This document shows positions 39,660 to 40,341 of a stretch of 64,000 nt of DNA, one piece after another; within the stretch, counting starts at the first letter, position 1; each line of letters opens with the position of its first letter. The translations under genes were made by a program, and so were the position numbers. This DNA comes from Treponema sp. (lineage in GTDB: Bacteria; Spirochaetota; Spirochaetia; Treponematales; Breznakiellaceae): contig WRLP01000007.1 in assembly GCA_009777535.1 (NCBI GenBank), forward strand, positions 1,272-65,271, read 5' to 3'. The notes beneath the pieces are model-generated. The model saw only the letters and a list, made by a program, of their open reading frames with translations. It made no database searches and was not told where the DNA came from.

Positions 39660-40267
39660 GTGATTTGTCTACTTAATGGGCAAGCCAAGCTAAAACGCAT
39701 AGCGTTTTAGCAATGGAGCTAAGGGGAATTGCCTTTCAAGCCTCGACATCAAGAGGGGAACCTTCGCCCTATGGGCTCGGTTGAGGTTCCTGTCTCGGCT
39801 TTACAGGCCGTCTTTTTTGCTAAACGCGCGTCCATGCGCGTTTGCCTTCCAAAGCCTTTCGGCTTTTCCAGGCCGCAAAAAAGTTTCAATTCCCCTTAGC
39901 TCCTGAGGCATTAAATAATAATTTGCGCCTGCTGCTCAGGCTTCGTATACTTCGTATACGTGCCTGAGCGCATATACTCGCATACAGTGGAAATAACTGA
40001 GGCTACGACGTTCAGATTTTTTGATCCACGCCCTTACGGGCGCGATTATTTGTCGTGGAGCTAAGGGGAATTGCCTTCCAGCCCTCAGCTTCCATGCTTC
40101 GGGCTTACAGGCCGTCTTTTTTGCTAAACGCGCGTCCATGCGCGTTTGCCTTCCAAAGCCTTTCGGCTTTTCCAGGCCGCAAAAAAGTTTCAATTCCCCT
40201 TAGCCAAAAAAAATGGAGTTTTGCGCGAAGCAAAACTCCTAAGCTAAAACGCATAGCGTTTTAGCAC
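39660..40267. repeat. Hairpin-dense repeat block beside tRNA-Ala
   Basis: About 600 non-coding bases. A 45-bp direct repeat (39687-39731 and 40241-40285, one mismatch) contains the palindrome GCTAAAACGC-ATA-GCGTTTTAGC and the last 17 bases of the tRNA-Ala gene (GGAGCTAAGGGGAATTG on the + strand). Two cassettes (39715-39903 and 40057-40203) begin with that 17-mer and end with its inverse, complete in the first and 13 bases in the second. They share 99 identical bases (39801-39899 = 40105-40203). Between them lies a 36-base hairpin with stems GCTCAGGC and CGTATAC (39934-39969). Confidence 0.85.
40206..40239 (-). terminator. Intrinsic terminator of tRNA-Ala
   Basis: Minus strand: a 10-bp stem GGAGTTTTGC/GCAAAACTCC (arms 40239-40230 and 40224-40215), a 5-base loop, then A and eight T (40213-40206). 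It lies 28 bases downstream of the tRNA 3' end. Confidence 0.8.
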
Positions 40268-40341
40268 TGGAGCTAAGGGGAATTGAACCCCTGACCTCTT
40301 GAATGCCATTCAAGCGCTCTAGCCAACTGAGCTACAGCCCC
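40268..40341 (-). tRNA. tRNA-Ala (anticodon GGC)
   Basis: Full cloverleaf on the minus strand: acceptor GGGGCTG/TAGCTCC with the G3-U70 pair that is the alanine identity element, D-arm GCTC...GAGC, anticodon stem CTTGA/TCAAG with loop ATGGCAT (GGC), T-arm AGGGG-TTCAATT-CCCCT and discriminator A. CCA is not encoded. Its 3' end is the source of the repeats downstream. Confidence 0.97.

Follow-up and report, generated by a model that had tools for sequence, protein, structure and literature searches.

The tRNA-Ala gene in the 64,000-nucleotide stretch analyzed here (the window) is followed by two members of a family of tiny folded inserts found in spirochaetes, mostly termite-gut relatives of Treponema. 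We consider it probable, at somewhat better than even confidence, that these "tRNA-tail cassettes" form a gene-less, non-autonomous family of insertion elements whose termini come from the target tRNA and which probably move as a folded single strand. One and the same orthologous locus can be occupied in some species and vacant in others, and cores resembling one another stand behind different tRNAs.

Organization of the tRNA-Ala array

The window lies on contig 7 of the source genome (code G000; 2.77 Mb, 47 contigs, 46 tRNA genes), and its sole tRNA gene is tRNA-Ala(GGC) (Table 1). In the direction of the tRNA, the locus reads tRNA, flank 1, inverted tail, core 1, tail, flank 2, inverted tail, core 2, tail, flank 3; the elements are downstream of the tRNA on the minus strand, which corrects the initial annotation. 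That annotation had reported direct copies of the last 17 bases of the tRNA, each with a cassette ending in their inverse. The direct repeats are present where it placed them, but they measure 18 nt (CAATTCCCCTTAGCTCCA, nt 56–73 of the tRNA) and number exactly three, including the one inside the gene. Both inverted copies were found as well, the first at the 17 nt described and the second at 14 rather than 13 nt. Because the direct piece is exactly nt 56–73, the insertion point is assigned to the T-loop, between nt 55 and 56. The cassettes, described as 99 bp and identical, are genuine repeats that span 106 nt at 98% identity (39795–39900 and 40099–40204). A further claim, that a 45-bp repeat with a palindrome covers the tRNA end and its downstream copy, held in full (39687–39731 and 40241–40285, 98%; palindrome GCTAAAACGC-TAT-GCGTTTTAGC); this repeat is the duplicated tail plus 27 nt of 3′ flank and bounds the entire array.

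Folding of 39680–40267 is far beyond chance (z = −12.5 on the minus strand and −15.9 on the plus strand), and a terminator-like hairpin separates tRNA-Ala from the first core. The cores measure 117 nt (unit 1) and 155 nt (unit 2); in the predicted fold of the first, arm B runs GCCT...AGGC with symmetric purine internal loops and an apical loop ATGGAA. The 13-mer AATTCCCCTTAGC occurs at five places in the 2.77-Mb genome, all at the tRNA-Ala locus, as compared to none for a reversed control pattern.

Table 1. Features of the tRNA-Ala array and its surroundings (window positions unless a contig is named)
Feature	Position	Strand	Evidence or remark
tRNA-Ala(GGC), array host gene; T-loop insertion point 40285|40286	40268..40341	-	ARAGORN; Rfam RF00005, 66 bits
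Tail copy 1 (tRNA nt 56–73)	40268..40285	-	inside the functional tRNA
Flank 1, 63 nt	40205..40267	-	palindrome GCTAAAACGC/GCGTTTTAGC (within the 45-bp repeat), then GGAGTTTTGC hairpin + T8, intrinsic-terminator-like (within 40205–40243)
Unit 1 inverted tail, 14 nt	40191..40204	-	reverse complement of tRNA tail
Unit 1 core	40074..40190	-	R1 match G000:C7:41326-41471, 140 bits; fold: arm A (stem CTTTTTTGC/GCAAAAAAG, two hairpins, loop ATGGAC) + arm B
Tail copy 2, direct	40056..40073	-	18/18 identical to tRNA nt 56–73
Flank 2, 152 nt	39904..40055	-	spacer between the two units
Unit 2 inverted tail, 17 nt	39887..39903	-	
Unit 2 core	39732..39886	-	R1 match G000:C7:40984-41167, 125.5 bits; like core 1, with ~40-nt interspersed repeat nested in arm B
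Tail copy 3, direct	39714..39731	-	18/18
Flank 3, 27 nt	39687..39713	-	26/27 identical to first 27 nt of flank 1; outer end of local duplication
Wadjet type I operon JetABCD, complete	32841..39594	-	PADLOC profiles
tRNA-Ala 5′ part (to anticodon loop), exact 32-nt copy	40470..40501	-	~130 nt upstream of the intact gene
Bacterial small SRP RNA gene	41405..41503	-	59.9 bits; overlaps an ORF start on the opposite strand
~400-aa tyrosine recombinase (~390–420 aa, N-terminal extension)	G000:C26:34009-35175 (L239:3010-4176)		also L240, L241, L242, L244, L246

Arm B of core 2 contains a ~40-nt palindromic insert (window ~39750–39790), part of an interspersed repeat that recurs at several non-tRNA places in the genome (L005, L007, L010, L015, L017, L019, and L020). 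Upstream of the array, the 32-nt copy of the tRNA-Ala 5′ part has an upstream flank resembling that of the intact gene and may be a scar left when the anticodon loop underwent a separate event. Elsewhere in the genome, tandem repeats of ~236/352 nt lie directly upstream of the tmRNA gene (G000:C5:27500-28400; L008) and have short motifs in common with flank 2.

The proximity to Wadjet reported earlier is that of a neighbor and nothing further: no tail copy exists beyond the operon, and Wadjet was accordingly rejected as cargo of the array. In three Treponema genomes (L178, L186, and L208), a tRNA-Met unit is immediately followed by type I restriction-like (hsdM-type) genes, one of these loci having a different upstream gene; with Wadjet in the window, defense genes recur behind these arrays.

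Elements of the source genome share one anatomy

A DNA search of the source genome gave some 20 partial matches, the majority located near the tmRNA or behind tRNAs other than tRNA-Ala. Each of the 46 tRNA genes was read together with up to 1.5 kb downstream, the sequence read consisting of the stretches around tRNAs and matches, and an element was present behind about 20 of them, some degenerate. The tRNAs concerned are Ala-GGC, Ala-CGC, Gln-CTG, Gln-TTG, Leu-CAG, Leu-TAG, Leu-GAG, Trp, Thr-CGT, Lys-TTT, Arg-TCG, Arg-CCG, His, Ser-TGA, Ser-GGA, Ser-GCT, and Glu-CTC, with a degenerate element at Tyr and traces at Gly-CCC and Asp. The initial annotation had suggested a small non-autonomous element with the tRNA 3′ end for its terminus, to be abandoned if the cassettes were single-copy and explicable as a simple tandem duplication. 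The suggestion is supported, as the same core recurs behind these tRNAs and in most relatives. The search it proposed for inverted tail pairs elsewhere in the genome and in relatives succeeded, each copy being accompanied by pieces of its own tRNA in direct and in inverted form.

The general layout is tRNA(..T55)-[tail-flank-rc(tail)-core]n-tail-flank, with n up to 5. The core occupies about 105–150 nt when uninterrupted, adopts one conserved fold, and lies directly behind the tRNA or tmRNA in the same orientation. Before it comes the tail of that RNA in reverse complement (8–18 nt, usually 9–12), and after it a mostly exact copy of nt 56–73. In intact elements of the source genome, the distal copy is nt 56–73 of the element's own tRNA, and the proximal piece is the reverse complement of the T-loop and the T-stem 3′ strand (nt 54–65, sometimes more of the tail). 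The 18 elements extracted fold alike. Inverted and direct tails pair as the closing stem P1; arm A is a stem enclosing two hairpins, one with an ATGGAY- or ACAGGAY-type loop; and arm B has the form GCCU-(GGA/GGA loop)-stem-(GA/GA loop)-hairpin, with a loop such as ACAGGAYGU, and usually ends GGAAGG just before C56. Cores start with AA in nearly all cases, the direct tail box starts C56-R-A-N-T and follows the host tRNA, and the inverted box is its reverse complement. A covariance model built from ten compact elements (R1) recovered 18 units in the source genome at E<1e-7, all tRNA-linked and all known from manual reading. Several cores (L004, L026, and L056) contain a related nested insertion of 100–130 nt (e.g. 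GGCGCCCAAATAAAGCACAGC...), apparently from a further small repeat family for which the hairpin serves as landing site.

Distribution of the family and its linkage to tRNA and tmRNA genes

R1 matched 111 of 149 relatives, spread over five families of the order. Among 392 genomes drawn from the phylum, 84 had matches, all in one spirochaete class and including further families, and none of the sample outside that class did. One complete genome (4,059,867 bp) has 19 matches. Of 135 distinct matches, 133 have a tRNA or tmRNA upstream of them, on the same strand and no more than 1.5 kb away; the other two are at a contig edge (L150) or have a Met-like tail (L115). Among the linked matches, the tail copy agrees with the element's own tRNA or tmRNA at 18/18 positions in 112 and at 17/18 in 7.

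A core-only pattern (ACAGGAYGTTTGCGANNGGAAGGC) was scanned over one genome each of ~85,000 species; as the pattern contains no tRNA sequence, this test is unbiased in that respect. It matched 26 stretches, all from spirochaetes and titled Treponema sp. (22) or other spirochaetes (4); most are metagenome-assembled genomes, whose isolate codes suggest a termite-gut origin. All 22 matches with upstream DNA available are at a tRNA or tmRNA, and their tails (19 exact, 2 at 17/18) agree far beyond chance for an 18-mer. The pattern had zero matches in viral contigs, and a phage origin was rejected on this basis. Homologous cores occur at over 25 kinds of tRNA or tmRNA gene, the nearest neighbor of a core being at a different tRNA in 89 of 112 cases.

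The core fold is conserved on the tRNA-sense strand

Across 59 distinct sequences, standard pairs fill 91.7% of paired cells, as compared to 62.4% after shuffling and 33–45% in slid controls. Covariation of the core pairing is 0.674 versus 0.196 for shuffled alignments, a value reached by 0 of 500 shuffles. Covariation in P1 is in part copying from the tRNA; arms A and B covary independently of P1. In clean core columns, G-T pairs outnumber A-C (56 versus 17), which argues that selection acts on the fold of the tRNA-sense strand, whereas the tail stem has no such bias (12 versus 14), as plain copying would leave it. The strong covariation and the sense-strand bias, both sequence statistics, would be compatible with a strand-preferring site folded from a single strand, as in integrons.

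Such a fold could also belong to a functional structured RNA tied to tRNA transcription, either a CsrA-type sponge or a tRNA trailer RNA. The sense-strand preference would suit this reading, hairpin loops AUGGAY and ACAGGAUGU resemble CsrA sites, the purine internal loops resemble tandem-GA motifs, loops ACAGGAYGT and CATGGATG dominate, and the sense strand has an excess of GGA (5.3 per core versus 4.0 shuffled; TCC 0.6). Similar AYGGAY-type terminal loops are combined with tandem-GA internal loops in the TwoAYGGAY RNA motif (RF01731), which was proposed to bind CsrA (PMC4333381) and which likewise has two such loops. However, many loops are ACACGATGT and contain no GGA, presence at a given tRNA is sporadic, and G-T makes up 1.9% of core cells as compared to 7.5% in tRNA stems of the same genome, a rarity that DNA would prefer. 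A recognizable intrinsic terminator splits the tRNA from the core of the first unit in 34 of 72 cases, and there is little room for a promoter. Searched at permissive thresholds against Rfam 15 (including TwoAYGGAY, CsrB/Rsm, and TD-2), the cores matched no family, TD-2 giving matches below cut-off on flanking hairpins only; unlike the cassettes, TwoAYGGAY has no tRNA link described in the literature consulted. G-T rarity, terminators, and strand bias together lean toward folded DNA over expressed RNA, a leaning that falls short of proof, and we regard a structured RNA as unlikely.

Relation to tRNA-targeted and other small elements

Integration in the class II (T-loop) pattern is known from mycobacteriophage Ms6 (PMC1762012), and from genomic islands in Islander (PMC4383910). 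The units could be remnants of ordinary class II tyrosine-integrase elements, i.e., phage or island attachment scars to which the element brought its own copy of the tRNA 3′ end, later stripped of genes and tandemly duplicated. A block of identity running from T-loop to 3′ end is typical of class II, as are an insertion point within the T-loop, an exact copy of nt 56–73 at the far end, and a tRNA kept whole. Units can also have their own flank or terminator (L189, L194, and G078). Unlike class II elements, they contain neither integrase nor cargo, measure ~130–390 nt, are often tandem, and have a conserved folded core with one covarying fold across the whole class, as well as an inverted tail, which att scars do not have. 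A single family spans most tRNA types and the tmRNA, occupies about 20 of 46 tRNA genes in one genome, and has no core-pattern match in viral contigs. An origin as class II remnants is therefore also improbable, and marginally more so than a structured RNA.

Integron attC/IntI arrays resemble the cassettes in their folded site-like hairpin with a distal box continuing into the next unit, in apparently strand-specific folding, and in a fixed entry site (here the tRNA). They differ in that the cassettes have tRNA-specific boxes in place of GTTRRRY/RYYYAAC and sites with no genes between them; IntI is missing from most bearers and present in genomes without elements. Like MITEs and REPINs (mobilized by RAYT), the units are short, gene-less, rich in hairpins, bounded by terminal inverted repeats, and numerous per genome; unlike them, they have terminal repeats that belong to the target tRNA rather than the family and are found at tRNA and tmRNA genes only, always in one orientation. 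The family lacks at least one tested defining feature of each of class II elements, integrons, and TwoAYGGAY; T-loop entry and a single-strand folded site describe how the cassettes may work, and membership is not claimed.

Filled and empty sites, flank duplication, and array growth

The tRNA-Gln(TTG)-rplY locus is syntenic in the relatives read. Among the first 30 loci read, 28 have no unit, and those of G000 and G078 are filled; in a second batch together with R1 matches, it is also filled in G097, G105, G074, G060, G109, and G101, beside many empty sites. (At the tRNA-Met locus of G132, synteny with relatives is not conserved.) In G074 and G105, a flank of 21–22 nt stands both before the inverted tail, which it abuts, and after the distal tail, where it is contiguous with rplY. 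In the source genome, the flank is similarly duplicated over 45 and 61 nt at Lys and Ala-CGC; no duplication is visible at the tRNA-Gln-rplY locus of G097, and none is recognizable in several other loci. The duplicated length therefore varies, from the tail alone to the tail plus about 60 nt.

A SINE-like retroelement might produce such variation, with target-primed reverse transcription yielding a duplication (tail plus flank) of widely varying length and fold-back synthesis the inverted tail; a single inverted piece lies against the core, the trace to be expected of fold-back priming. Against this, G-U pairs are rare for an RNA, and reverse transcriptase (PF00078) is absent from 13 of 17 element-bearing genomes tested, including G000 and G101, such that we consider a retroelement quite unlikely.

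Tandem arrays comprise up to five gene-less units of about 130–390 nt. In two loci (L195 and L202), adjacent units have near-identical tail, flank, and inverted tail and different cores, which argues that the core is exchangeable and the rest belongs to the locus. In three others (L189, L194, and L200), neighboring units differ in flank and have a common tail, with cores either similar or different; this fits units that arrive with a tail and flank of their own better than it fits target duplication. Both kinds of exchange, or gene conversion, may occur in arrays. Near-identical tandem units (G319, G084, and G101) probably expand by recombination, and slippage or unequal recombination at tRNA loci would account for such expansion, yet a history with nothing mobile is very improbable, as local slippage cannot yield homologous one-fold cores at more than 25 kinds of tRNA or tmRNA gene throughout a class, or orthologous sites of which some are filled and others empty.

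Similar cores at different tRNAs were compared in 89 pairs (core identity ≥78%, mean core divergence 19%). Their tails differ at a mean of 3.2 of 10 positions, the inverted pieces fit their own tRNA, and the exact inverted run averages 10.8. A very recent jump between tRNAs was not seen, the closest cores with different tails being 90% identical and from different genomes; slow coevolution could in principle also rewrite an inverted tail.

Candidate mobilizing enzymes

Among integron integrase, tyrosine recombinases, and reverse transcriptase, no mobilizing enzyme was found, and neither the integron integrase nor the reverse transcriptase tracks the elements. Integron integrase (TIGR02249) exceeds its cut-off in 33 of 149 relatives, and was rejected as the driver given complete genomes with IntI and no elements (G038, G041, G123, and G135) and many bearers without IntI. 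Three bearers (G077, G079, and G437) have just two tyrosine-recombinase matches each; those of G077 and G079 lie about 5 kb apart, and we infer a XerC/XerD-type pair. The ~400-aa tyrosine recombinase (Table 1), common in the organism's own family and in many termite-gut treponemes, was likewise rejected, its association with the elements being positive and mild (29 of 32 genomes with it versus 34 of 58 without, at ≥90% completeness). A larger gene-bearing element was sought as well; none was seen, the units standing in tight arrays at tRNAs without cargo.

The ~400-aa recombinase appears to head attC-like cassette arrays of its own, which have no R1 match. The sites (e.g., L241, GCACCTAAC ... 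GTTAGGTGC) are spaced by ~1.1 kb, and recombinase and arrays are possibly an undescribed integron class.

Proposed mechanism and implications

We propose that a tRNA-tail cassette moves by entry of its core into the T-loop between nt 55 and 56, as the tail boundary suggests. The tRNA 3′ end, often with adjacent flank, would be duplicated in the process, leaving the tRNA intact. On the simplest account, the inverted tail would be copied from the target on insertion, for instance as a folded 3′ end is extended along the tail next to it, so that the element takes termini from any tRNA it enters. What moves is probably the tRNA-sense strand in single-stranded form, folded as the conserved hairpin, on which a host or trans-acting recombinase would act. 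Growth of arrays within one tRNA locus may be ordinary recombination between repeats. A stronger version, which we put forward only tentatively and do not yet favor, is that of a self-retargeting folded DNA element, copying the target tRNA end into its own termini in both orientations at each insertion and hence able to colonize almost every tRNA or tmRNA gene.

No published description of the family was found in the open-license literature; unpublished or subscription work may exist. The insertion pattern, with termini taken in direct and inverted form from the target, is without clear precedent and points to an unfamiliar way of copying DNA into tRNA genes. In these bacteria, the family may skew tRNA annotation, genome assembly, and the detection of islands, and it offers a natural system for studying how folded single strands could be inserted harmlessly at essential genes. 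In one bacterium, about 40% of the tRNA genes carry a member of this apparently unnamed family, which extends through a spirochaete class that includes Treponema.
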